The position numbers and the translations under genes are program-made. From Falciphora oryzae (lineage: Eukaryota > Ascomycota > Sordariomycetes > Magnaporthales > Magnaporthaceae): DNA of 64,000 nt. The stretch lies in contig JNVV01000037.1 in the NCBI GenBank assembly GCA_000733355.1, positions 87,767 to 151,766 on the forward strand. The letters are read 5' to 3'. Position 1 is the first letter of the stretch. Every line of letters begins with the position of its first letter. This document shows positions 2,616 to 44,820 of the stretch, one piece after another. The notes below the pieces were generated by a model. It searched no databases. It was not told where the DNA came from and was given only the letters and a program-made list of their open reading frames with translations.

Positions 2616-5600
2616 TCAACTCTTCGCGGCCGCCCTAGCCACCGCCCTGACAACCATCTTCTCCGCCAGCGCGTACAAGGAGGCCGCGTTGACGATATCG
2701 AGCGTGCTCAGCTCCGCGCCCGCTCGCCTGCGCGTCCACCCACGCAGGTCCACCGCCGACAGCGAGTCCAGCCCGTAGGCCGCCAGCGGCTTCCCGGGCT
2801 CGACCGCCGTCTCCATCCGGAGCAGCTTCGCCACTTGGGTCGACAGCAGCCCCACGGCAGCGTCGACCAGCGCCGGGCGGGGGGCCGTGGGGCCGGGTCC
2901 CGCCGCGGCTGCCGCTGCCGCTTCCTGGACCATCATGCCGAAAGCGCGGGTGGCCTGTTCCGCCTCGTCCTGGTCCTTGCCATTGCCGCCACTGTCGGAA
3001 TCGCCGTCGACGCCGTCGCTTTTAAAGAGATGCCCGAAGCGCACGTCGCCGACCAGGTCCGACCAGCCCGCATGTAGCGGGTACGCCAAGCCCGTCATCA
3101 TCTGGGGCGCGCTGTCGGCACCGCCAATGGGCCGGTGGCGGTCCTGCTGCAGAATCGAGTATGTGAGGATGCCGCGGAGCGCTGCCTCGCCTATGGGCGG
3201 CCACTGCCGCGCGTCGAAGCGGTCGTTCAGGTCCGAGCTGGACTCCGCCATGACGCCAACGTCCTGGATCACGCCCAGGTCGACCGTGTTGGCCGCGAGG
3301 CCGAGCTGCCGCCGGTAGCTGGCAAAGGCGTCCAGAAAGGCGTTGGCTGCGACGTAGCTTGCCTGCCCTTTGTTTCCGACGACGCCTCCCATGCTCGAAA
3401 GCATCGTGAAGAAGTCCAGGGGCCGTGGCTGTTCTTCCTGCGAGGCTCTGTGGAGGTTCCACGTGCCCTGAACCTAGGGCCTCACGACGGCGTGGTAGTC
3501 CTCCACGGTCGTTGTCTCGTAGGGCCGGTCCCGCAGGACCATGGCGCCCTGGACGACGCCGGCAATCTTGGGGCTGGCCGATCTGAAGATGCGCCTTACA
3601 AAGTCCGCGTCGCCCACGTCTCCCCGCGCTTCGCTGACCTCGCACCCGAGAGCCCGGCAGCTGTGCACGATCCTGGCCGAGGCTGCGTCGCCGAGGCCAC
3701 TCCTGCTGCAGACAATAATGTGGCGAGCCCCGTGGCGAGCCATGTGGATGGCAAGACTCCCGCAGAGTCCCTTGAGACCGCCGACGATAAGGTACGAAGC
3801 CTTGGCTTTCAGCTGAAGCTGGCGGACGGCAGGCTTGATGGGCAGCTGCACATCGTTCTCACTTGACCTTGGTCCGTCGGCGTTCCCGTCGGTGATGACA
3901 ACCTTTCCAATGTGCTGCCCTCTCCGGATGAAAGCCAAAGCGGCCGGGATGGCATCGAATCCGAAGGTGGTGATCGGATGTATCGGCTTGATGTGGCCTG
4001 CCCCGACCAGCTTGAACACCTGGCTCATGAGTCTGGCGGATAGTTCGGGCGTAAAGTGTCGGGTGTACGAGAGGTCGATGGCGCGGAACGTGCAATTGCG
4101 GTCGAATGGCTCCATGGAGAGTGCGTTGCGGTCGACAATGTCCCTTTTGCCGATCTCAACCATTGTCCCGCCGTCTGCGCAAAGCCTCCAGGACGCATCT
4201 AGAAGCTCTCCCGTGAGCGAGTTGAGAATGACGTCGACGCCGCGGCCGTCGGTGGCGTGCATTATCTGCTCAGCGAACGCCACGTCGCGGGAGGAGAAGA
4301 TGCGGCTCGGCGGGATGCCGAAATTGCTGGTCAGGAACGCGCGCTTCTCGTCGCTGCCGACCGTGGCGAATATCTCGGCCTTTTTGTATTGGGCCAGCTG
4401 GACAGCGGCAAGCCCGACTCCGCCAGCCGCCGAGTGAATCAGGACCGACTGTCCCTCCTGCAGGTTTGCCAAGTTGAACAGGGAGTGCAGGGCAGTCATG
4501 TACGCCAGGGGAACGGTCGCCGCATCTTCGAAGCCCATCCAGTCCGGGATGGGGTGCGCTCGACCCTGGTGGACGCGCACGCGGTTGGCATACAGGCCCT
4601 TGGCCACGACGGCGACGCGATCGCCGACCCGGAATCCGGTGACTCCTGGGCCCAAGCGTCGAACCGTGCCGGCACACTCACAGCCGATCGTGAACTCGTT
4701 CTCGGGAACGATGCCCATGACCGTTGCAGCGTCCTTGAAGTTGATGCCCACCGTCCGGACTTCAACCTCGACATGGCACGCCTCCAGCTCCTCGGGCACT
4801 TCCGCTTCCACCTCGCGCCAAGCAAGGTCCAAGGTGCCGGCACGCTCGCCGTGTATACGCACCTGCACGTCAGTGCCGAACAGGCCCTTGACCACGGGCT
4901 CGCCCGCGCCGTCGACCTCGGCCCGCTTGAAGGCGTTCAGAGCCCGGTCGGGAACCACCCTCTGCGTATGAAGCACGCCCCCACGCTCCGCAAACTCGGC
5001 CTCTGAGGTTTGACCGTCTCGCAACACGCGAAGCACCCTGTCGACGGCCCACGCTGTCGCAGGGCTCGCGCCGGACTCGACGTCGAGCACTGTCAGCCCG
5101 GCTGAGGGGTCTTCGCGGCGCACCGACCTGAACAGCCCGTTGACCAAGGCCCTGTCGGGGTCCGTCACGCGCCCGTGCTGCGCGCCTTTGGTGACCCACA
5201 GGATGGGCGTGCCCGAGCCCGTGAGCGCCTTGATGGTCTCCCACTGGCGCCCATTGATGGTCGCGAGGACCGGGCTGAAAAGCTCGTCCAGAATCAAGAC
5301 AACGGTGTTCTTGTGCTTCTGAAAAAGCAGCTGTGTGATGTCGCGCTGCTCGGCCACCTTCCAACCCGACGCCTCCAGCGTGTTTCGGAGCGACTGCGCC
5401 AGTCTAGGAGTGCTCTCTTGGAGTCGCAACACCGACAGATTCCAGGGGCCCGAGGCCTGGCCGGTCGCAAGTGGTTGTTGCTCTTGGCGGTTGGCAGGCA
5501 TGCGACCGACAAGCATCGTCCCTCCTTCCTTCGCTACAATACGCGCCCCAACGGCCGGTCAAAAAGCTCGCCGACTTTACCGAGACGGCCCAGCGTGCGG

Positions 5601-8600
5601 CGATTCCAGACCGTACTGGAATCGTCCTGTCCGGCAGTCTTTTTGATATCTGTCTCGGACGCGGTGGTCTCGGACGAACTGTCCGAGGAGCGCTCAGGGG
5701 AGAAGCCGCCGGAATCCACGGTAGGGTCCGAGTCAGATGAGTCCGAGGAAGTGTCGAGATCATGTTCATCGCCGGTAGCGAGGGCGGGTTGTACCCTATC
5801 GAGCCCCTCAGGCGCCGTCGGCGCCGCCTCGCGCGCGACAAAGATGACGAATGATCCGGGCTCCATCCGGGGCTTCAGTCTCCGAGCCACGTCTTCCGGT
5901 GCCAGTGGAGCGCGACTGGGTCCATAGGGGGCTTTGACAATAGCCAGATCATAGGCTACATCGACAGGTAAGCCAAGTGCCCCGCTGGCCACGTCCGCTA
6001 GGGAGAATGAGGCTTTGCTGTGCGACTCGTGTTGCGCTCGAATCTCGACCAAGGACTTGGCGTCCGTGGAAGCAAAGTCGTACCGGGAGTACGCCGCCCG
6101 CATTGATAAGGACTGCTCAGTGGTGGCGTCGAACCACACGCTTGACGTGCCGTCGTCGCCAAGGCTGATTTCAAGGACCTTGAGGTTGGGCTTCCTGTGG
6201 GCCACGAGGTCGATGATGAAGTCCAGCGTGGGCTGTCGGGTCTCGCTACCGGGAGCCGTGAGGTGCGCCAGCTGGTCCTCCGTCAACAGGGAGATATCGG
6301 GCTTCCAAGAGAGGCGGTGGAATATGTGGAGGACCGGCTGCAAGCCGGCATCTAGCTTGGTGACGTGGATGCCTCGTGCCCGCACAAGAAGCTTGCCGCT
6401 GTCCGGATCATGCACGCCGACGTTGGCAAGGTAGCTCTTGGCCTGATCCTTGCGGCCACGCTCCGAGAAGACCGCCTCAGCCACCGAGAGCCCCTCGCTC
6501 AAGACCTCAGGCACGCGGTTGATGAGCACCTCGCCCAGCGCGGATGGGACGAGGATATCCTGCCAGCGACAGGGCTCGCCCTCGACGAGAGCCGGGTTTA
6601 CGCTCTGGAAGCAATTGTCAAGAACAGCCGGGTGTATGGGATAGTACGACTGGGGATCCCATTTGGATTTGGGCGGGTCCATCGAAATGCGCGCGCGGCA
6701 CTTGCGTTGGCCGCTGCTGGACTCGACGTCCAGTATCTTCTGGAAGGCGGGGCCAAAATTCATGCCGGCCTCTTTCTGCGCCTTGTACCATAGCTTCGCT
6801 GAGGTGTGGTGATGGAGAGGCGCGAGTGCAGGGCCAGCCAAGGCTTCGTCGACAGTCTCTTCATGCACTCGAACAGAGCCATGGCAGTGCTGGAGCACAG
6901 CGCCCTCGACCTCTGACGATATGCGGAACTCGTGCCAGTCCGCGCCGCCCGCCACCGGCGCCAGCGACAACACGACGCCCACAGGCTTGTTCTGTTCGAG
7001 CACCAGGGCGCGCTGGAACCGAACGTTGCGGAATCGGTATGCCAGCTGGTTCGGCGAGTTGACCGCCTGTTCGGGCTTCAGCATTGAGTGCTTCTGATAC
7101 ATGGCCTCGAGCGCCATGGCGAGGTATCCAGCTGCAGGCATCAACACGTCCGGGCCCATGACGTGGTCTCGCAGCCATGGCACGTCGTCCAGGCTCAGGC
7201 GCTTGCGCCAGATGGGCACCTGCCAGGGGGTGCCGAGCACTTTGCCACCGATGAGGTCGTGGGTTTTGAACGGCTTGAAGCGCCAGTCCAGACTGGACTG
7301 GTTTTCGAACCAGTACTTGATCGAGTGGTTCCACGAGTAGTTGGGGAGGTCAACGACGACGCGGGGCAAGTCCGCTGTTGCTCCTTGGCGTACCCCGTTG
7401 GCCCGAGCGAGATTGACCTCGGCGCCGGCATTAAAGAGACGGCCGGCCACATCCAGCAGCGTCTTGGCAGTGTCTGGGCCGCGAGACCAGGAAGGGAAAT
7501 ACGTCACATCGGCTGCGACGGGAAGAGATTTGAGCACCTGGGATACCGGCCCAGACAGTGCGCCTGAAGGCCCGATCTCGATGAGGATGGTGGGCTTTTG
7601 CGGGTCCGAAACCATCGCAGCGAGCGCTTCGCTGAAGCGAACAGGCGACACCATGTTAGTCTGCCAGTAGGCGGCGTCCGTCGGCCCCGACCTGCTAGAC
7701 CCGGTGACTGAGGAGAACATGGTGACATTAGAGCCTGTTGCATCGGTAGAGCTAAACTCGCCGTCTTTGGCGAGAAGAGTTTGATACTCTTTGCCTATGA
7801 CCTCCATCAATTCCGAATGGTAGGCCAGGTCCACCTGGAGCAGGCGGGCAAAGTGGCCAGCCGCCTTGATGTCAGCTGCAAGTGCTCCAAGCGCCCCGAC
7901 CCTTCCGGAGATGGTGACGCTGCTAGGGCTGTTGAAGCAGGCGATCCATACGTCCCCGGCGAACTTCTCGAGGAAAGCGGCGACGGCATCGGCACCAAGA
8001 CCGACGGCGAGCATGCCCGTGTCTTTTTCCGCCTCATCCCGACGGTTCACAGCGGCCCTGCCTCTGTAAAATGCGGCCTTGATGGCAGAGGCGCGGTCGA
8101 GGAAGCCGGCGGCGTACGCTGCCGCAATCTCGCCCGATGAGTGGCCGACCACGCTCACTGGAACTACGCCCCAGGACTCGAGCACAGCCAGTATCACGAG
8201 CTGCAGAGCAGTGACCAGGGGCTGCGAAAACTCGGGCTGGCGCAGGTGTTCAGGGGAGCGAGGCTCGACAAGCTCATCGAGCAAGGACCAGCTAGGACGG
8301 TCAGGTAGGCGCTCAAGAACGCCGTCAAGCTCGCCCAGAACGGCCCGTGCCGCGTCAGGAAAGAGATCGAGGAGGGCCTTTCCCATCTCCGGCCACTGGG
8401 CGCCTTGGCCAGTGAAGACGAAGCCAACCCGCGGCGCCTTGGGGCTCTTCTTCCCAATATTGAAGTCGCCGGGCTGGAGATCAGTGGTGCTCGTTGTGGC
8501 GAACGCCCGGTACCAGAACCTCGAGCGTCGCTCCGCCAAGGTGTAGGCAAGGTCCGAAAGGTCGACACGGACCCGTGGGTTGGTGAAATGCCTACAAAGC

Positions 8601-10268
8601 GCGTTGATGTTGGCCCGAAGACTCGCCTCGTCGTTGGCAGAGAGCACCAGCGTACGCAGCCCGGCCTCGGTGCTGCCGCCTTGGGCACCAGAGGAGTTGG
8701 CCTCGAGGCTCAGGTCCCCTGGCGGATAGGAAGAAACATGCCGGACAGGCAGCTCCACGGGCGCCTGCTCGACGACGGCATGGCAGTTGGTGCCGCCGTA
8801 GCCGAACGAGTTCACGCTGGCCCGTCGGATTTTGCCCGGCTCATCGGGCCATGCGATTGCCGTGCGCGACGCCCTGACCTTGTTCCCGGCAAAGTCAATG
8901 TTCGGGTTCGGGTTGATGAGGCTTGGGGTCCCAGGGATCCGTCCCTTCTCCAGGCAAAGCACCGTCTTGATCAGGCTAGAGCTGCCGGCGGACGGCTCAG
9001 AGTGGCCGATGTTGCTCTTCACGGAGCCGATGATCAGAGGCGTCGCGGCGTCGCGTGTGGGCGCAAAGACAAAGCCCGCGCCGTTCACCTCAGTGGGATC
9101 TCCGGCGGGGGTGCCCGTGCCGTGGCATTCCAGGTAGGCCGTATCGTTGTAGTTGCTGATGCCGGCGGTGGCATATGCCTGCCTGATTGCAGCGGCTTGC
9201 CCTTCAGAGCTGGGGCTTGCCAGCCCATTCGTACGGCCATTGCTGCCACAACAAATGGGAAGGTTAGCCACATATGCGCCAGGGTTTTTTGGGAGGCAGA
9301 TAAACGAAGACACTGGCGGCAGGAGGGCGCCGCCGACAGCGCCAACCAACGAGGCCTTTGCTGCTTCCAGTGTCTTCATGTGATCCATTCCTGGTTATAA
9401 AACGGATTCATGACCGATATCTCCACGTACCTTGTCGAAGCCGTCCCCCGAATGACGGCACGGATCGGATCTCCATCCCTCACAGCATCTGCAAGTCTCT
9501 TGACGATGACGGCGCTCACGGCCTCGGCCTTGATATATCCATCGGCGGAAGCGTCGAAGGAATGGCACAGGCCCGACGGCGAATGCGCCTGGCCCAGGCT
9601 GCCGACGTCCTGGACATGTTCCGGGTTGAGGAAGAGGTTGCTGGTTGCGACAATTGCCGCGTCGCACTCGGCATTGTGCAAGGCGCGAACAGCCAGGTGT
9701 ACACCCACCATGCTGCCCGCGCAAGCGGTGTCGACGGTGACGCTGGGGCCCTTGACGTTGAGGAAGTAGCTCAGCCGGTTGGCCATGCTCGAGCGCCCGA
9801 TCCGACGACGTGGTTGGCCGCCCGGTCCAGGGGGTCGCGGTTCTGGATGTCGGCATAGTCCGTCGCGAACGAGCCGACGAAGCAGGCGACTGAGCTCCCG
9901 TCCAGGCGCTCCAGCGTCAAGCCCGCATTCTCGAGGCCTTCGAAGACGACCTCGAGCATCTGTCGCTGATTCGGGTCCATGGATACAGCATCGGCCCCGG
10001 AAACCTCGAAAAAGGAGGCATCAAAGTCGGCAGGGTCCACCTCGCCGAGGAACATGCCGCCCGGCGGACGCATCGTCCCCGGCTTGAGCGACCCATCATA
10101 GTGGGTATCGACCCGGAAGCGCGACGCGGGCACTTCACGCGACGCTATCCCACCCCTCTCGAGGAGTTCCCACAGCTTTTCAGGAGAGCTGCTACCCCCT
10201 GGCAGTCGACAGGCAAGGCCTATAATCGCCACGGGCTCCAGCTGCGGCTGTTTCATGTTGGCGGCCAT
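2616..10268 (-). pseudogene. highly reducing type I polyketide synthase, KS-AT-DH-(psiMT)-ER-KR-ACP, disrupted
   Basis: An iterative HR-PKS of about 2490 residues starting MAANMKQPQ at 10268. KS (about 10240-8760) has its cysteine in DTACAGS and both histidines (ECHGTGT, NIGHSEP), and is split by a 188-nt intron (9243-9430, GTACGT..CAG). AT has GHSSGE near 8140. DH has a WLRDHVMG histidine near 7170, although the usual Gly of HxxxG is Pro, and an HPAVLDNCFQ aspartate near 6600. A methyltransferase remnant follows (about 6300-5800), with LEISLGDDG in place of a SAM-binding loop. ER (4900-3920) has HSAAGGVG, KR (3820-3250) has GGLKGLCG and ASYVAAN, and ACP has YGLDSLSAV near 2768. Lesions: a frameshift near 9790 in KS, a frameshift near 5550 between psiMT and ER, and an in-frame TAG at 3474-3476 in KR where lysine is expected. 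It cannot make a full synthase as assembled. Confidence 0.93.
9243..9430 (-). other. intron inside the KS domain of the PKS
   Basis: Donor GTACGTGG and acceptor GGCAG join ACAAG to C-AATGGC and restore the KS stretch TASTSNGRTNGL, matching the family. Read through, the 188 nt would insert about 63 foreign residues into the KS. Confidence 0.88.
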
Positions 10269-24912: not shown

Positions 24913-27454
24913 ATGGAGCACATCAAGAAGGCATTCGAGCGCTGCAAGGCCAACGGCCGGGTGAGGATCTCCCTTCGACTTGCTACCCCTCAATGCCGCT
25001 TGCGGAGCGGACTGGCGATGGCTTCAAAGAATGGGGCGCGGCGCAAACCATGAGGCGAATCTGGTTCAATCTAACTTATTCCTTTTGTCATGTCTCCAGG
25101 CAGCGCTGGTCACCTATGTCACGGCCGGATTCCCGACGGCGGCGGACACCCCCAACATCATGGTAGCGATGGAGAAGGGCGGCGCTGGTAAGGCCCCTTC
25201 CGACCCGACCCCTGAGACAGCGCAGCGCAGACGACAAAACGCTAACGAATCAATTTGTCTGCAGATGTCATCGAGCTCGGCGTGCCCTTCACAGACCCCA
25301 TCGCCGACGGGCCTACCATCCAGACAGCCAACACGGTGAGCCAGCAGCACATGCCAAGAGCGTGGTAGGGAGAAAGGCAGACGAAGGGATAAGGCGTACA
25401 GCGGAAGGCTGACGATGCGAAATTGCTCCACACTCGATAGATCGCATTGCAAAATGGAGTCACCATCACCTCGGTTCTCCAGATGGTCCGGGACGCGCGG
25501 AAACTCGGCCTCAAGGCCCCCGTCATGATGATGGGCTACTACAACCCGATGCGGGCATACGGCGAGGCCAAGCTGCTCCAGGACTGCAAGGAGGCCGGCG
25601 TGAACGGATTCATCCTCGTCGACCTCCCCCCTGAGGAAGCCGTCTCCTTCCGCAAGCTCTGCAGTGTTGCTGGGTAAGCTCTTTACCCCTGGCCCTACCT
25701 CCTATGCGCCATTCTGGTGACTCACATCTGACAACCATACCTCGGGCCATAGACTTTCGTACGTCCCCCTGATCGCGCCCGCCACCTCGGACGCCCGCAT
25801 GCGACTTCTTTGCCAGCTGGCCGACTCCTTCATCTACGTCGTCTCGCGCATGGGCGTTACTGGCGCCACTGGAACCCTGAACGCCGCTCTCCCGGAGCTG
25901 CTGGCTCGTGTAAAGAAGTATAGCGGCAACAAGCCCGCCGCCGTCGGCTTCGGCGTCTCGACGCGCGAGCACTTCCTCGCCGTCGCGGGGCTGGCTGATG
26001 GTGTCGTCGTCGGCAGCCAGATCATCACGACCCTCAAGAATGCCGAGCCTGGCAAGGCCATCGAGGCCACGCGTGAGTACTGCTCGTACCTGTGCGGCCG
26101 CGCCTCGGTTGAGGATGTGGCCGAGGTCACGGCCGCCCCGCCTACCGAGGACGGCGTCAAGACGGCGCCCGGCGATGAGGCCGGCGCCAAGCCCGGAACC
26201 GCCGAGGCCAACGATGCGGACCTCGTGGCGCAGCTGGCGGCCATGCATGGCAAGATCCCCGACCGGTTCGGCGAGTTCGGCGGACAGTACGTGCCTGAGT
26301 CGCTCATGGACTGCCTGACGGAGCTTGAGGATGGCTTCAACAAAATCAAGGACGACCCGGCCTTCTGGGAGGAGTACCGGTCCTACTACCCCTACATGGG
26401 CCGGCCAGGCCAGCTGCACCTGGCGGAGCGGCTGACGGAGCATGCGGGCGGCGCCAAGATCTGGCTCAAGCGCGAGGACCTGAACCACACGGGCAGCCAC
26501 AAGATCAACAACGCGCTAGGCCAGCTGCTGCTCGCTCGGCGATTGGGCAAGAAGCGCATTATCGCCGAGACGGGCGCGGGCCAGCACGGCGTCGCGACGG
26601 CCACGGTCTGCGCAAAGTTTGGCATGCCCTGCACCATCTACATGGGCGCCGAGGACGTGCGCCGGCAGGCATTGAACGTGTTCCGCATCCGCCTCCTGGG
26701 CGCGGAGGTAGTGCCCGTGACGGCGGGCACGCAGACGCTTCGCGACGCCGTCAACGAGGCACTGCGGGCTTGGGTCGTCGACGTGGACACGACGCACTAC
26801 ATCATCGGCAGCGCCATCGGCCCGCACCCCTTCCCCACCATCGTGCGCACATTCCAGTCCGTCATTGGCAACGAGACCAAGGAGCAGCTGCAGAAGCTGC
26901 GCGGCAAGCTGCCAGACGCTGTTGTGGCTTGTGTCGGCGGTGGCAGCAACGCTGTGGGCATGTTCTACCCCTTCTCCAACGACCCTTCGGTCAAGCTGCT
27001 GGGCGTTGAGGCGGCCGGAGACGGAGTAGAGACACTTCGGCACAGCGCCACTCTGTCGGCCGGCACCAAGGGCGTCCTGCACGGCGTGCGCACTTACGTG
27101 CTGCAGAACGAGCATGGCCAGATTCAGGACACTCACTCGGTCTCGGCTGGGCTCGATTACCCAGGCGTGGGTCCGGAGCTGTCCAACTGGAAGGACAGCG
27201 AGCGTGCAAAGTTTGTGGCCGCTACGGATTCGCAGGCTTTCGAGGGATTCCGGCTCATGAGCCAGCTGGAGGGCATTATCCCCGCGCTTGAGTCGGCTCA
27301 CGGCATCTACGGTGCCGTCGAGTTGGCCAAGACAATGACCCCTGACCAGGACGTTGTCATCTGCCTCAGTGGCCGCGGTGACAAGGATGTTCAGAGCGTG
27401 GCTGACGAGCTGCCTAACATCGGGCCCAAGATTGGCTGGGACTTAAGGTTCTAA
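24913..27454 (+). CDS. TRP5: bifunctional tryptophan synthase (alpha-beta fusion)
   Basis: Five exons: 24913-24960, 25100-25187, 25265-25335, 25441-25673 and 25753-27454, giving 2142 nt and 713 residues. The alpha part (residues 1 to about 260, TIM barrel) cleaves indole-3-glycerol phosphate. It shows [15 protein letters not shown] with the catalytic Glu and Asp. The beta part (about 315-705) condenses indole with serine using pyridoxal phosphate bound to the lysine in [12 protein letters not shown], and shows the phosphate-binding GGGSNAVG. The linker carries an Ala/Glu-rich insert. Introns crowd into the alpha half and the beta half is intron-free. The single-chain arrangement is the fungal norm. 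A TGACTCA site lies 163 bp upstream. Confidence 0.97.
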
Positions 27455-36572: not shown

Positions 36573-38683
36573 CTAGCAGCGCGTTCGATCCGACAGGTGG
36601 ACGGGTCCCGTGTGGTGTGTAGGTAAAGACTCAGAAAGCCCCAACGATTCCTGAATTGCTCCGAAACATTTTAGGTGAAAAGCAGGTCAACTTGCTCGCG
36701 CCTGGCAAATTAAAGTTCCCAGGATCTACTGCCGGCAGAATTACACCGCCCGCGAGGACACTTTGACCCCTTTTTCCCATCTGCGCAAATTCCCAAGGAG
36801 GCAGGCGCAAGTGCCATTCAGCAAGTCGGCCCTTCCCTACAATGAAAACTTGCGCGTTTTAGACGAGAAAAGTGTTGCGTGGCTGCTTCTACACCTCTCC
36901 AGGATCATAAATGTTAGTGGGAGGCACACAGCGTTGCAACAAATTTGCAGCACAAACAAATGTATCAACCAAGTGGGGCTAGGGTAAAGGTACAATATTT
37001 TAAGTACGATTCTCTATGCAGAAAAGTGTACCGGGTACATCTCTATCGGGAAAGGAGGCACCGGAAAATAACGTTTGTGATCCTGGAGGGTGTAAAATCA
37101 AATTTATCCTTAGACGAGCGAGATCTGAGAGCGACCCCACGGCCCACCAGAAACGTGGAGCAGTGTGGACCCCGATGCCAAGATGCTTTGAAAAGGGCCC
37201 CCAATGTCTTCCAGTTCCTGCATGTGTGGCTGAACTTGAAACCAGGAGAAGCTGGAAAACCCTGGTTGCCATCGCCACGCCAGGCCCCCGTCTCCCTGCG
37301 CAAGCAGGTGGCAGCACCAGTCGATTCGACGACGCGGCCGCCTGTTGCAATACTTTTTAGTTGCGCGATTTTGCGAGACATAAAGCAAAGATCTGCGTCT
37401 TGTCCATGCGGTCTCGCCCGACCGCTTCATGTCGTCTTAGCGCACTATGGAAGCATTTGGCGCCGGCTGATCTTGAAGGCTCGTCGTTGCTTGTCATCGA
37501 CGGAAACAAGTGTTTTTTTTTTTTTTTTTTTTTTTTTTGTGGAAAGCCCAGGTCTCAGCCCCTATTGTCCTGTCTCACGACGGAACGAGTTGACGCCGTT
37601 TGCTCCTGCCAAAGAATAATTCAAGAAAAAGGCTGCTCAGTCTCGGGCCTATTTGTCTCGGGAGCTGGCGGGTGACAGATTTTGTTCTTTCTTCTCCCGC
37701 ACAACAAAAACCGCATCTTCCGGCCAGGATTCTGTTTGGGAAAGCGCCGTGGCTTTTCTTCTTCATGGATGGCTGTCCATGTTGTCGGAAGTGACGGTGG
37801 GGCGTCTAGGCCCAGACGTTGGATCGCGGCTCTTGGCCCCTGTCACGAACCAGAGCCGCTCAGATCCTCTGGCCTACCGTGCCCACCCACCCACTGCCCC
37901 GGCACTTGCCTGCCGCAGTTCTCCCCCTGTGCTGCCTTCATCCGAACAAGCAAAGACGTTTTATCCGTCAATCTCGGTAGCCTTATCTCTTCCCGGGTAG
38001 ATGAGATCGAAACGTTGAGAGGAAGTGCTTCGCGACCTCTCAGCTTCCGTCCGAACCATAGTATCCCGGATTTCCTTACTCCTACAATCCATCTTTAGTT
38101 CTTGTCTTTCAAATGTATCATGTTGTTGATACAGGACTATCCGTAACACAAACCGGCCAAGCCAGCCAGAAGAAGGAGTTGGCGCCGGCCAACTTCTCCG
38201 CCCAAGCCTCGCTACCCTATACGGCAAACCCCCCGGTTTCTTCCCCACAAATCATTGCATACAAGAAATTCGGTCCTCTACGTGCAGAGGAGCCCCTCGC
38301 AACGAGGGCTGAACTCGGACTGCAAGGTATCGGCAACCCGCATGCTCTCGAATTGCTTGCCGTTTCATAGACCCGCTGAGGCTCTGGGCGCAAGCAATGG
38401 CCATTTCATTGTGGCTGGCTTGGCGATATCCACGCATCCCATTAATGTCATCCTTTTCCTCCTGTCCATAGCCGGCCTGGGCCCCCTCCTGCTAGCATGC
38501 AGAGGGCGGACATCCTTTCCACCATCATTGCTACCCAAAGGGCGAGCCCCTAAGACCCTGGACGGTCGTTCCTCTCGTTGACTTCCCCATACCCAGCCTT
38601 TGCCCTAATACCAGTTGACTTCCCCGCCACTATTTGTCAGTTTCCTAAAAAAAAAAAAAAAAAAAAAAAATTACTTATTAATC
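36573..38683. other. divergent intergenic region, no gene seen
   Basis: 2.1 kb between two divergent large genes. It contains 26 consecutive T at 37513-37538 and 24 consecutive A at 38647-38670, the latter 13 bases before the next ATG. Small frames here are not protein-like. Confidence 0.65.
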
Positions 38684-41600
38684 ATGTCCGAAGGAGCATG
38701 CCCAGTCCCTGGCTCCATGGGCGGGAGATGCCCTGGATCAAGGCTGGGCCGTCGAGGGGGCAGTCAGTCGCTTCGCGGACCACGTGGATGTTCTTTTTCC
38801 GGGTATTGCCAGCCTGGAGATATCCACGCCGCTTTTGACGTGAGTACCCACCGCACATCATACCAAATTTAGAGATCGCCTCCTGACTCGAGCTACCCAT
38901 TTTCAGATCCCGAGGGGTGTTGATGCCGAGGAGTGGCTAAGACTGCGGTATGGCCTTCGAGATCCGATCATAAGTCTTGCTACCAAGCTCCAGTCAACAC
39001 GAATGGGAACTAACAGGATCATGCAGTGAGCGTAAAACAATTAACGAGGTCCTATACTCCAACATACCAGCCCCAGACGTCCTCAACAAGACCAAGAACG
39101 TCGACACGCTCACGGCCAGCGACCACGACCTGCTCGCCGTCGCACTCGGCGCCCCCGTCCGGCAGGTCATCCTCAGGGCCGAGGAGGTCGGCCCCAGGAG
39201 CGGTTGGAGGGATGGCTACCTGACAGCCGAGTATGGTTTCGTCCCTGCCGATGCCGACGAATCCCCCGCCGCCCTGGCGGCGTCGCCCGGCCGCATCTGG
39301 TCGGACCTCTGCGAGCGCATGCCGGGCTGTGTGGCCCGGGGCCGCGTCAGAGACTCGGTGGCCGCCCTCCCCGTCGTCGAGGGCACCGAGGACGCCATCC
39401 CGGACGCCGCTCTGTGGGCTGCGTGCGTCGCCCTCGGCATGCTCTGCTCCATTTACCGGTACGAGGAGAACAACGACGGGAGCGAGGGCGTTAGTGTTGC
39501 CTCCTCGTCGGCCAAGCGCATGGTCGAGATGAGTGACGACGTTGTGGAGGAGCTTAAGGGGATACCAAAAAGCATCGGCCTCCCCTACTTTCAGGTCTCC
39601 AAGCGCCTGGGGAGGGCCATCCCGCATCTCAGCTTCGTCGACCAGTCATCCTACAACACCAAAGTCAGGGATCCGAAGTCCATATACCCCTATGTCGCCC
39701 GCTTCGACAACATTGACCTGAGATGGCCAATGTTTGGCGAAAGGACCGAGATCGCCTTTCTCAAGGGCTGTGCCGACACATCTGGTGGGTCATGAGTCTC
39801 CTGCCGCCTTGTACCCCTTTTTATTTTTAACTTTCTTTTCCCCTCTTTTCCTTTTTTTCATCAGCCTTTCTAACGATGGATAACTACAGCCTCCTTCCAG
39901 CACGGCCCGGACGCAATCGCCAGCTGTCAGGAACATGTGATGAACAGGAACGTGGAGGGACTCCTGCGCGAGCTGATCCGGCTAAAGGAGATACTAGAGA
40001 GGATGCCAAACGCCTTTCACTCGATATCGCCGAACCCAAGCTCTGGCGACAATTTCGTTTCAGCCGAGGAATGGGTCAGATGGGGACAGTTCTCCAAGCC
40101 CCTATCCAAGCGCTGCGCCGCGGCTTCTGGTCTGCAGTTCCCACCCTATCTCCTCATGGATGCGTTCCTAGGGCGGAAAAGGTACGACTCATTTCCGGGA
40201 GCCGAGGGCGTCCACCCGAGGGCCCGGCAGCCGGCGAACCTGCGCGCTTTCATCGCGGCCGTCGAGTACCACTACAGCATCCCCGAGTTTGTCGAGCGGT
40301 CGGGCGACCCCCGGCTCATGGGGGTGTTGGATGGTATTGTGGAGGCCTATTCCGGAGAACGTGGGTTCATGGGAGTGCACCGCTACAAGGTGTTCGGTAT
40401 CCTTGAAGTTGCTGCGAAAACAGGGCGTACCGAGACCAACGGCGCTTCTGGTGCGGCTGACGACACCAAGCCGTGGGAAGAGACTCACAAGCAGTTCTCC
40501 GAGTCGATGCGCGAACGACTAGAGCCCTACAGAGGAGACATCCCGGAGCCTCACCAGATGCGCGGCACCTTTGAGGAGTGCAGGTACCGGGCCAAAATAC
40601 TCGGCCGTGACTTCATCGATAATGACTCTGCCCGGACTATCGCCGGCGTCACGCTCGATATCCAGAACACGGGCATCACCTTCCAGCCTGGAGACCGCCT
40701 GGCCGTCATGCCGCTCAACAGCTGGGAGGAGTGCGCCCGAGTTGTCGCCGCGCTCGGTCTTGACGCTCTGCTAGACGCGCCCGTAAAGCTAGACTCTAAA
40801 TGGACGCGATTTGCCAAGCGCATCGAGTCCGTTTCGCGATCCGGCCCGGCGCCCGATCTGACTGTCAAGGACATTCTCCGCCGCGGTCACCTGGCTCCCC
40901 TGACACAGGAGCTCGTGCTCAAGATCCACTCCTTGCTACGCGCATCGTCCAACAGTGTCTTGCAGGTTCTTGCAACGGACGAGTGGCCGGTCAGGGGCTC
41001 CCTGGGTGACCTACTGCAGTCGGCTGTGCTCGACACTCCCTCGAACGTCTGGGACCAGGCCTTCGACCTCCAGGGGGATCTGGCCTGGCTTGGCGAACTT
41101 ATCCCCGTCGAAGTGCCGAGGACCTACTCCATCTCCAGCTTCCCCGACGAACTCCTCCCAAGCACGGTCGACCTGACCGTCTCGCGCTCCGAGTACCAGC
41201 TCTGCTCAACGTTTGCCGGCAAGGATCACGTCGCCAGGTCCAGCGTCAGCAGCGGCTTCCTGAACCCGGCGGTGGCGTCGCACGACGAGATGATGCCGAT
41301 CGACGAGGACGTCATGATTGGCGTGTCGCGGCCCGTGGCCTTCCAGCTGCCGCTGGACGGCGCGGCCCCCTGCGCCTTCTTCGCGGGCGACAGCGGCATC
41401 GCTCCCTTCCGCAGCTTCTGGCAGGCCCGCATCGGGACCGGGACCGTCGGGCGCAACATCCTGTACCTGGGCGTGCAGTCGCGCGATAAGCCCTGCTACG
41501 AGAATGAACTGCGCCAGTACGTCGGCAGCGGCCAGATGGAGGTGCACCTCGCCTTCTCGCGCGACTCCCGCGGGCTGGTGTTCGACCCTTATAGCCGGGA

Positions 41601-43932
41601 CCTGATCGAGCACAAGGTCACGCCGCGTTACATTGACGCGCTAATCGTCGAGCAGGGAGCCACCGTCTGCGATATGGTTATGAGCAAAAAGCAGGGCGGG
41701 CTCGGCGGGTATCTTTACGTATGCGGATCTGTTTCAGTATTCGAATCCGTCATGAGTGGCATTAAAAAGGCCATCTACAACCACCGTACGGCCACCATGG
41801 AGTCGGCCGACGTTATCGTCAACACGGCGTTTGCCGAGCGCCGCTTCATGCTCGACGTCTTCATGACGCCCAAGCCGCTGCCGTGCAACCTTCCGACCAT
41901 CCCCATGTCGCAGCTGGCCCTCAACACAGGCCACCGGCCTGGGCAGCGCATGTGGATCGGCGTGCATGGCAAAGCGTACGACGTTACCGATTTCTGCCCT
42001 ATGCATCCGGGCGGTACGCTAATTATTAAATCGAACGCCGGCGTCGACTGTTCCAAATCGTTTGATAACCTCGCCCATACCAACAACCCGGAGGTGAGCA
42101 GCCTCCTGACCAAGTACTTTGTCGGCCACCTGACGCCCAAGCCCGACTTCCACAGCAACCACGAGCTGGGTGGCCTCTACGACCTCTGGGCAGACTACCT
42201 GCGCACGAGCGTCGAGACGTTGGTAGCCCAGAACTTCGAAATGAACCTCATCGTCGGCGAGAAGATGGACTCGCCCATCGACCCGAGCATGGTCTGGTTC
42301 CAGGGCAACATGTTCTCCATGAGAGGCGTCCGAATCTTCTACAAGTACCAGTCGAGACTTTTGCAGAGCGGATTTTCGGCCTTGTTCGGCCCGAAATTTC
42401 AGGAGTTGGTGCTGAAACTGTCGTTCAACCTCGCCAATTCGGCCTCCGCCGGCGCCTCGCCGCGGCTCCCGGACGTCCTGGGCGTTATCGCGCGCGCAAA
42501 GACGTCCGAAGAAGCCGTAACTACGTCCAAGGAGATATCAGCCATCGGGCGCTTCATCAGCCACAGCGAAGACGCGCGCTTCCACGAACAGGGCATCATC
42601 AACTACGCGACTCAAGCCATCGAACTGGATATGGGCCTGCTTGAGGATATCCGCATGGAGGCCTGCCATGGCATGGACGCCTTCGACGCCCTCTCCAGCC
42701 TGGATAACGGATCCGAGGCCGAAACGATCACGGCGCTGGCCACGTTCCTGATGCAGGTGCTGGAGCGCATGGCGAAGCGACTCGAGATCTTCTACGGCAA
42801 GCTCGCGCAGCTCTCGGTGTACAGGCCCGAGATCGAGCGGAATCCGGCCCGGACGCGCTGGCGCCTGGTGCATCAACGCGTGCGTGACGGGTCCTTCTTT
42901 GTGCTCACGCAGAACATGTCCATGGCCGCGCCGCCGTCCTTCCAGCCGCGCAACCAGCCGACGGTAGACTTTGACCACATCATCAGCCAGGTCCGACACA
43001 CCCTGGCCGTGAACCCGGCGCCCATGCTTGCTCAGAATCAACAGCAGCAGACGCAGCATCGCTCTGCAGCAGCTGCGCCCGCCCAGCCGGCAAAGACGGC
43101 GACCCTCAACTCGATGCACCACTCGCGGACCCAGGCGCCGCCCAACGGCGCCTCGGCATTTGAGAGCTACGAGAACGGCAACGCGCTCAACCGCATGAGC
43201 ACCTTTATGGACCGCAACATGCGCGCCATCCGCCGCCTGTCGCGCGCCCCTGCCGGCCCTCCTCCAACCTTTGCCGCCCCGCCCCCTATCCCCGGCATGA
43301 TCGCGTACGGCAACGACCCCAACAACAGCAACCACATGCAACAAATGCTGCAGCAGAACCTGCCGTACCAGATCCAGATCCCGACGCCGCCGTCGAGCCG
43401 CAGCTCGAGCCGGTCCGCAGCCCTGGACCGCGTGCACACGACGTCGCCTGAGCAGCAGCACTTGATGCACAGCGCGGCGCCGTCTACGGGCAGCCCGCTG
43501 GCGGAGAGGCGAGTGTCCCCGCAGGCAATGATGATGGCGGGGCTGCAGCAGAAACAGCAGCACCCACCCACACCGCCCATGAGCGGTGCGAGCGTTATGG
43601 CGGCCATGATGGGCAAGATGAACGTGCGTGGGCGTGTTGGCGGCGGCGGTGGCAGCCCCAGAAGCAGTAGCAGTCGGAATAACAGCCCCGCCGGTGGTGG
43701 TTTCGGCCGCGCAAACTCGTATGCCGGGCCGCCTTCGGGGCAGCACTTCCGCCACCCCTCGGTGAGCGCCGTCTCGGTCGGCGGTGGAGGCGGTGATGCC
43801 GGTGCAAGAGTGGGTAGGCCGCGGACGGCAACGAGTACGAGCAGCGGCGGGCCGCTTAGGACCTTCAAGCTGGGAGAGCTGGTTGTTGGACAAAATCAGG
43901 GGAAGACGCAGACGGTGCCGCCGACATTTTAG
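38684..43932 (+). CDS. IDO-like haem domain + NADPH/FAD reductase + cytochrome b5 fusion protein
   Basis: Four exons: 38684-38839, 38907-38947, 39027-39784 and 39890-43932, totalling 4998 nt and 1665 residues. Residues about 60-500 form an indoleamine-2,3-dioxygenase-like domain with LPYFQVSKRLGR and the family's proximal-histidine signature RGFMGVHRYKVFGIL (His482). The other IDO signature (GGSxxQSS) is not conserved. Residues about 545-975 form a P450-reductase-type FAD/NADPH module: PGDRLAVMP, RTYSISSFP (from Arg729), SVSSGFL, GDSGIAPFRSF, FSRDS, YLYVCGS and a C-terminal RFMLDVF. No flavodoxin/FMN domain precedes it. Residues about 1000-1075 form cytochrome b5 with HPGG (His1024) and the second haem ligand in LAHT (His1048), 24 residues apart as in b5. 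An unrecognised helical region (about 1090-1320) and a disordered Gln/Ser/Gly tail follow. I infer electron flow NADPH-FAD-b5-haem. Confidence 0.9.
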
Positions 43933-44820
43933 ACGCGTGGGTAGTAGTGCGGGCGGGGAGTTGGTGATGGAAGGTTATAGGGGCAGATGGCGTGTACTTT
44001 AGCTAGTGTGTCTAGTAGAGAATATCAATAGATAGAGATAAGGGGGGACCACTCTCGGGTCGCGTTGATTCCGATATCTCTTTTCCCTTGAGTTCCGTCC
44101 TAATGATGTCCATCCTCGTTCACCACAAAAAAAAAAAAAAAAAAAAAAGATGGCACCCCCCGCCTGCACCACGGGCAAAAAGCATTGAAGGAAAGGTACA
44201 AGGAGACGAAACGATACAAAAAAGGGCGGGAGATAAAAATAAAAGGATACAGGAAATAGGAAAGAATATCGGGGAAAGGAAAAGATACAAGAAAAAGAAG
44301 AATACATAGGAATAAGAGAAATACATAGGAAAAATGAAAAGATACAGTAAAAAGGAAAATATCTAGGAAAAAGGAAAGGATATAGGATAGAAAAGCTCAT
44401 ATTGGGAGTTGCGGGCATTGGCTGCTTCGCTCCTGCTGTTCGAGTCGTCCAGATCCATCTTCCGAGGTCTCAGGGTCGGCCGGGCAGCTGTCAAAATCAT
44501 ATCTGAACGGCAGGACATTGCAACGTTTGGGAAGACTCCCTTGAGAGCAGCCATTCTAGCAGAGCAGCTGGCAAACAGGTGGTTGGCCCAAGTGTACCAC
44601 TGATCGGCAGTTGTTTGTCCAGCCAGATATCCCAAGGCAGCCACTCCAAGTCAACCAGGCTCCCCTCCCACAAGGGCTTAGCTAGTTAGACCTTGCCAAA
44701 CTCGAATTCTGACCTAGCAGTCACGACCACCTCCCAGCTCCGTTACCCACACACAAACACTTGCTCATCAATCTCAGCCAACACTACCACATCGTCAAGC
44801 CACGTGCTAACACAGTCACC
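43933..44820. other. intergenic with A-run and purine-rich repeat tract
   Basis: 22 A at 44127-44148 and a degenerate purine-rich tract at 44200-44397. The 60 bases before the next ATG are an ordinary CA-rich leader. Confidence 0.65.
44200..44397. repeat. degenerate GATACA/GGAAA purine-rich tract
   Basis: Repeated ATACATAGGAA, AAAGATACA and GGAAARGATA motifs without a strict period. Similar in kind to the tract at 24416-24525, and likewise behind an A-run. Confidence 0.65.

Follow-up and report, generated by a model that had tools for sequence, protein, structure and literature searches.

A candidate self-sufficient haem oxygenase built on the indoleamine 2,3-dioxygenase fold in Falciphora oryzae, with relatives across Dikarya and in Actinomycetota

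Introduction

In the described indoleamine 2,3-dioxygenases (IDOs), namely IDO1, IDO2 and the fungal IDO alpha, beta and gamma (Pfam family PF01231), the reductase and the cytochrome b5 (b5) are separate proteins. Here we analyze a gene of the fungus Falciphora oryzae in which an IDO-like domain, an FAD-NADPH reductase module and a b5 domain lie in one chain. The gene is located in a stretch of 64,000 nucleotides (assembly GCA_000733355.1, contig JNVV01000037.1, positions 87,767 to 151,766 of the forward strand), the whole of which is referred to as the window.

According to the part of PMC13142367 drawn on here, IDO1 turnover in vitro is supported by cytochrome P450 reductase (CPR) with or without b5, and it is called unclear whether these systems are at work in vivo. 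The corresponding part of PMC4191572 proposes b5 as the physiological reductant of IDO, with an assay in which b5 improved mouse IDO2 and left human IDO1 less active than methylene blue did. The original prediction for this locus, made from the sequence alone, had assumed that mammalian IDO depends on b5 and CPR; the in vitro support and the suggested role of b5 agree with this, and the role in vivo is what PMC13142367 leaves unclear. The reduction of IDO-type haems in cells remains an open question, and a natural single chain would make the route directly testable.

More widely, IDO belongs with TDO, PrnB, TyrH, SfmD and MarE to the haem-dependent aromatic oxygenase (HDAO) superfamily, whose His-ligated haems act with O2, H2O2 or both on aromatic compounds (PMC11791213, in the part drawn on here). 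The fusion protein resembles these enzymes in its IDO fold and probable His-ligated haem, but has a built-in reductase and b5, neither of which is mentioned for them in that part of the source. Its principle, a haem domain and an NADPH reductase in one chain, is that of P450 BM3 and nitric oxide synthase (NOS), and the reductase fold is common to all three. Unlike P450 BM3 and NOS, the fusion has an IDO fold, b5 instead of FMN as the one-electron carrier, and the order haem-FAD-NADPH-b5. Flavohaemoglobin, found in fungi and bacteria, likewise combines haem and FAD/NAD(P)H in one chain; compared with this general description, the fusion has no globin domain and carries an extra b5 and a helical domain. 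The original prediction knew of no biochemical account of such an enzyme, and we found no description of the fusion in the titles and abstract openings of the open-access literature matches listed, although subscription journals lay outside this scope and the result is not proof.

The fused gene and its product

The fusion gene occupies positions 38684..43932 of the window on the forward (+) strand, as do all features below unless stated otherwise. Its four exons (38684-38839, 38907-38947, 39027-39784 and 39890-43932) are separated by three introns (38840-38906, 38948-39026 and 39785-39889), all GT-AG, and the spliced gene of 4998 nt encodes 1665 amino acids plus a stop. This model is based on the translation and on relatives. 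A search of about 5.8 billion proteins yielded 7987 scored candidates and 305 relatives at E 1e-3 or better, 120 of which are listed. The closest of those listed, P0001 from Gaeumannomyces hyphopodioides, is 90% identical and spans 100% of the spliced product, and its alignment row, compared by eye with the translation of the window, is continuous across the start and all three exon junctions. The predicted coordinates, strand, exon number and length are borne out by this comparison.

Exon 1 (38684..38839) encodes N-terminal Cys-Pro motifs (MSEGACPVPG..GRCPG..GPRGCSFSG) that are kept in many relatives, two CP pairs occurring within the first 45 residues in 74/120 of those listed. An alternative frame of exon 1, more protein-like in appearance, was dropped, as the relatives carry the frame of the gene model. 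From within the IDO domain to the end of the gene, the reading frame of exon 4 stays open. The 50-Mb genome yielded one full-length copy, with long exons 93% and 95% identical to P0001, and its remaining matches are short and weak. A long run of A (about 38648-38671) stands just before the start codon, and a run of T (about 37513-37538) lies farther upstream.

The IDO-fold domain and its haem site

The IDO-fold domain covers residues ~54-515 (38910..40479, split by introns 2 and 3), with approximate boundaries drawn from Pfam, the AlphaFold model of the relative P0125 and profile comparison. The Pfam IDO profile (PF01231) matches residues 132-365 at E 1.1e-10 (41.4 bits against a curated cut-off of 26), within the first 500 residues, where the original prediction had placed an IDO-like domain. 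This match spans only profile positions 8-211 of 412, and the rest of the fold relies on the predicted structure of the relative, which agrees with the assignment and suggests that the IDO fold is complete in the family. When the family was compared with canonical IDO profiles, three canonical rows gave a 95% probability and 13 rows gave 99.6% (E 4.8e-24); comparison with single canonical IDOs yielded nothing useful.

To relate residues to human IDO1, an alignment was built of 13 canonical IDOs (10 bacterial, plus three of this genome, among them one roughly joined from its exons) and 19 fused IDO domains (three bacterial and 16 fungal, the latter hand-picked from 331 proteins); one of the fused rows ends before the H346 region. 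The relevant positions of human IDO1 are those that we take to be F163, S167, R231, S263, D274, H303, R343 and H346. The Asp274 equivalent is present in 13/13 canonical and 19/19 fused rows, and corresponds to Asp409 of the window protein (codon 40159..40161). The equivalent of His346, the proximal haem ligand, is His in 13/13 canonical rows and in 18/18 fused rows with a letter there, and corresponds by alignment to His482 (codon 40378..40380). Phe163 is likewise kept (13/13 and 17/19), as is Arg343 (13/13, and 17/18 fused rows with a letter), while position 263 holds Ser or Thr in 13/13 canonical rows and Ser in 19/19 fused rows. A wider set comprised 335 aligned rows, some of them fragments; of the rows that have a letter at the position, 240/242 hold His at the H346 equivalent and 224/228 hold Asp at the D274 equivalent. 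Among family members of at least 1380 amino acids, this Asp and His, the FAD arginine and both b5 histidines occur together in 130/133, the other three being gapped. A reference in PMC13142367, a source drawn on in part, describes Asp274 and His346 in its title as essential to the binding of haem.

The substrate side of the pocket differs. R231 is present in 13/13 canonical rows and in 0/19 fused rows (A17 K1 S1), in a gapped region; the S167 position is S, T or H in canonical rows and mostly C or M in fused ones; and the GTGG(T/S) loop after the proximal helix, found in 12/13 canonical rows, occurs in 0/120 fungal and 0/3 bacterial fused proteins. The His303 position, Leu436 in the window protein (codon 40240..40242), is not conserved across 233 rows (L148 W32 I25 H12 V8 M6 Q2). 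Set against IDO, then, the fusion is without R231, the segment after R231, the GTGGT loop and mostly His303, and gains a 3-residue insertion before the proximal His. We read this pattern as the haem-holding side of IDO having been kept and the tryptophan side lost; haem would be bound in the IDO-fold domain. In fold and ligand residues the fusion matches the HDAO superfamily, of which it may be a member with a putative His-ligated haem that oxidizes an aromatic compound.

Alignment of the proximal histidines requires the insertion to fall immediately before the His, which is where MAFFT places it, and the helix in the AlphaFold model of P0125 is broken at residues 426-429, the same site. The His of PPAHRNFL was considered as the proximal ligand, in which case the ligand would have been lost, and was rejected: counting back from the last residue of human IDO1, we take this residue to be His303 and His346 to lie in the LRSYHLQIVTKYI helix, and the IDO2 alignment displays both motifs.

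The FAD-NADPH module and cytochrome b5

Pfam, structure matches and alignment place an FAD-binding part of the CPR or sulfite reductase flavoprotein (SiRFP) type at 40585..41193, with RTYS at residues 729-732 (41119-41130), and an NADPH-binding part at 41383..41874 (GDSGIAPF, SRD, YVCGS and LDVF). FAD_binding_1 matches residues 551-753 (E 7.8e-11). NAD_binding_1 matches residues 817-868 (E 0.0013) at 19.7 bits in the window copy, against a cut-off of 22, and is found at E up to 0.1 in 29/29 relatives. The structure match, together with the RxYS and GxGxxP residues, identifies a module of the diflavin-reductase type, as in CPR, SiRFP and the NOS reductase. Unlike these, the fusion has b5 in place of the FMN (flavodoxin) domain: the Pfam scan of the protein contained no flavodoxin/FMN family at E up to 1, in agreement with the original prediction of a P450-reductase-type module without an FMN domain. 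The b5 domain, at 41932..42132 by Pfam and alignment, matches Cyt-b5 at residues 1000-1066 (E 1.6e-13). Its haem ligands, His1024 (42004-42006) and His1048 (42076-42078), are 24 residues apart, as had been predicted, and are conserved in 239/239 and 238/239 rows.

The window protein differs from the family at seven sites in which no more than one other of the 121 rows departs: A110V, L428P, W431R, H629R, G770S, G819D and F853P. Three fall in conserved motifs, two in HLRAW and one in the NADPH motif. Rare departures of this kind number 1 in the median row and 7 at the 95th percentile. Six further rows reach at least 7 (12, 8, and 7 in the remaining four), but the counts for the four nearest relatives are 1, 2, 1 and 0. 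The seven departures may reflect an error in the sequence, a change specific to the strain, or a loss of function.

Relatives and distribution

All four Pfam domains are found in 116/120 listed relatives, the others being without one domain each: P0004 and P0119 (IDO), P0032 (NAD_binding_1) and P0044 (Cyt-b5). In a 29-member alignment, IDO, FAD_binding_1, NAD_binding_1 and Cyt-b5 are each present in 29/29 at E up to 0.1. With this fusion frequency and with bacterial open reading frames (ORFs) that are single, separate transcripts are unlikely, and the predicted single polypeptide stands. The sources of the relatives include Sordariomycetes, Leotiomycetes, Dothideomycetes, Cyphellophora and Trichophaea, as well as Serendipita, Marasmius and Rhizoctonia, which we take to be basidiomycetes, the class assignments being our own. 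The three basidiomycete models begin within the IDO domain and retain its later part.

A PF01231 search of 246 Actinomycetota genomes gave four matches, two of them (G142 and G164) with a long fusion-type ORF. These ORFs are uninterrupted, encode 1162 and 1127 amino acids, include the helical end, and keep the fungal domain order. Their IDO domains score 98.4 and 85.6 bits and their b5 domains 68 and 54 bits; the NAD domain is also found, and FAD_binding_1, with 19.5 and 26.4 bits, falls short of its cut-off of 32.3. The G142 fusion is 26-27% identical to fungal rows. G500, a further genome from the same order, has a copy that is 93% identical and sits on a contig of 5.8 Mb, for a total of 3/30 positive genomes in that order, and a sample of 396 Actinomycetota genomes returned G142 and G164 only. 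On these results, the bacterial copies are rare but genuine. No relatives were found in 398 sampled Pseudomonadota genomes, a group that offered no positive control, in plasmids (DNA and protein searches) or in viral contigs; a scan for bacterial IDOs with a single query sequence was likewise empty. The survey of Pezizomycotina suggested by the original prediction does find the fusion there, but the family is not confined to them and extends to Basidiomycota and Actinomycetota.

In a tree of IDO domains, which is unrooted and has long branches, one branch (100/100) separates the fused from the 13 canonical rows, and the separation stays at 100/100 without bacA, bacC and C1. The fused IDO domains fall outside canonical IDO. 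The fungal fused rows form one group (100/100), and the bacterial ones adjoin it without forming a group themselves. A single fusion event, followed by transfer in either direction or by long vertical descent, accounts for this tree. Three further IDO loci, on contigs C5, C4 and C1 of the same genome (G000), have both the YxPxxH and RxxH motifs.

Public records name members of the family sulfite reductase alpha-component, nitric oxide synthase (inducible or brain), NADPH-hemoprotein reductase or indoleamine 2,3-dioxygenase. The sulfite reductase and nitric oxide synthase names could misdirect searches for fungal nitric oxide synthases. In Neurospora crassa, four mutants in NOS-like genes showed no dramatic change in nitric oxide (PMC4948021, in the part drawn on here). 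NOL2 and NOL3 of Magnaporthe and NCU05185 and NCU05006 of Neurospora were considered as family members, but that part of the source does not show membership.

Proposed function and competing explanations

Taking together the fold, domain order, conservation, cross-kingdom distribution and separation of fused from canonical IDO domains, each computed directly, we lean toward a self-sufficient haem oxygenase on an IDO fold. In the proposed route, NADPH would reduce the FAD of the SiRFP/CPR-type module, and the b5 domain, in place of the usual FMN domain, would accept single electrons from FAD and hand them to the His-ligated haem of the N-terminal domain, where O2 would be bound and used. Such a protein would hold two haems and turn over on NADPH. 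As the haem-holding residues are kept and the tryptophan-recognition elements gone, its substrate is more likely to be another small aromatic or heteroaromatic compound. Classical dioxygenases need electrons only to return to the ferrous state; an attached reductase would suit an enzyme that autoxidizes frequently, or an NADPH-consuming, monooxygenase-like cycle. Overall, the anatomy drawn in the original prediction is supported, its electron route is plausible, and its scope widens to a family common to fungi and bacteria. Among the substrates it allowed, tryptophan has become less likely with the loss of its recognition elements.

Several points weigh against this proposal. A true dioxygenase needs no net electrons, so the built-in reductase indicates a different cycle. 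His303, present in 13/13 canonical rows, is missing in 17/19 fused rows, and the alignment at R231 is less certain, adjoining a deletion. Around the proximal helix the alignment is not unique: the 13-row profile comparison did not place the helix or its His confidently, and among the 50 structural alignments listed, two end at the His-to-His offset of 88 and 14 at an offset of 86, the others ending beyond the proximal helix or following IDO2 numbering. In the window copy, the family Gly819 of the NADPH motif is Asp (41389-41391). Finally, the IDO relative PrnB formed no product in vitro when supplied with CPR or b5 (PMC11791213, in the part drawn on here).

The broader proposition holds that these proteins are an ancient class of self-sufficient IDO-fold oxygenases, common to Dikarya and Actinomycetota, with b5 replacing FMN as electron gate to a His-ligated haem. 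Such a class would parallel P450 BM3 on the side of histidine-ligated haem, act on a substrate other than tryptophan and carry an additional helical domain for regulation, having been masked by sulfite reductase and nitric oxide synthase names. To this we give an even chance. If true, the family would add a self-sufficient member, with intron-free bacterial versions, to the His-ligated haem oxygenases.

The loss of the tryptophan-binding elements, with no other substrate pocket identified, would also be compatible with nitric oxide (NO) or O2 handling like that of flavohaemoglobin or a soluble NADPH oxidase. In this case NADPH-FAD-b5 would hold the IDO-fold haem in the ferrous state, and the haem would convert NO plus O2 to nitrate or give off superoxide or peroxide as a signal. 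A single full-length genome copy and broad occurrence in Ascomycota suit a stress or signaling role. The CBS gene upstream in all three bacterial loci and a tail motif common to many fungal members also speak for this explanation. However, no globin family appears at E up to 1 in the Pfam scan of the fusion protein, and the IDO-fold enzymes described in the part of PMC11791213 drawn on here act on aromatics. We consider this explanation doubtful, though deserving of attention.

It is unlikely that the IDO-fold part is a haem-free, noncatalytic regulatory domain and that the reductase and b5 serve P450s, desaturases or another haem protein. CPR and b5 do ordinarily work for separate partner proteins, the helical domain could dock such a partner, and His303 and the tryptophan site are mostly lost. 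Retention of the proximal His, its Asp partner and R343 in fungi and bacteria alike would nevertheless be unexpected after haem loss, and the domain order is unchanged.

Were the protein still to act on tryptophan or indole as a 2,3-dioxygenase that carries its own activating system, the fold and the haem ligands would fit, and CPR and b5 activate IDO (PMC13142367 and PMC4191572, in the parts drawn on here). Yet this reading is improbable: the GTGGT loop, R231 with its following segment and, for the most part, His303 are missing, the same genome has three other IDO loci, and a dioxygenase needs reduction solely to prime the haem. It is scarcely credible that the gene model joins two neighboring genes as an annotation artefact, or that the protein is simply the sulfite reductase or nitric oxide synthase of the database names (which also include NADPH-hemoprotein reductase), given the open exon 4 and uninterrupted bacterial ORFs, scores of NCBIfam sulfite reductase models on P0001 far under cut-off (88.3 against 432 and 74.5 against 668 bits), and the finding of neither a NOS oxygenase nor a flavodoxin family at E up to 1 in the Pfam scan.

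Helical domain, tail and neighboring genes

Beyond b5, structure prediction and sequence searches delimit an all-helical domain (residues ~1075-1345; 42157..42969) that is new relative to the original prediction. Pfam yields nothing for it at E up to 10, and its PDB sequence matches are at chance level only; the PDB structure matches listed for the long AlphaFold model cover the FNR part only. Alignments of relatives define the low-complexity tail that follows (42970..43929), with the conserved island RMSTFMDRNMRAIRRLSR (~43192-43245). RAIxRLS occurs in 53/120 listed relatives and a C-terminal PTF in 93/120; the tail is missing from the bacterial relatives. The helical domain, and in fungi the tail, probably serve docking or regulation. 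An opposite-strand open frame of 478 amino acids (42541-43974, -) over the tail is most likely an effect of composition.

At the bacterial loci, a CBS-domain gene lies directly upstream of the fusion in 3/3 cases, with a weak receiver-like match, below cut-off, in front in G142. Within ten bases downstream, G164 and G500 have the gene of a predicted AMP-binding enzyme resembling acyl-CoA synthetases; upstream of the fusion, G142 has a RidA-family gene and a pyridine-nucleotide-disulfide oxidoreductase. The neighbors are suggestive of a unit for metabolism or stress, without deciding among substrates. After the G142 fusion (locus L029) come an arsenite-methyltransferase-like gene (1243-2340), named by eye, and a gene for a 200-aa protein (2343-2942).

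Ten long open frames around the fusion gene in the window were scanned, giving KH-domain, DnaJ and DUF3716 proteins and parts of a polyketide synthase, and four without a match. A tryptophan synthase gene (Trp_syntA and PALP; 25721-27451, +) lies about 11 kb upstream of the fusion, probably by coincidence. The polyketide synthase frames (3480-9394, -) include a ketoacyl synthase C-terminal part and acyl transferase, dehydratase, zinc-dependent dehydrogenase-type and KR domains.

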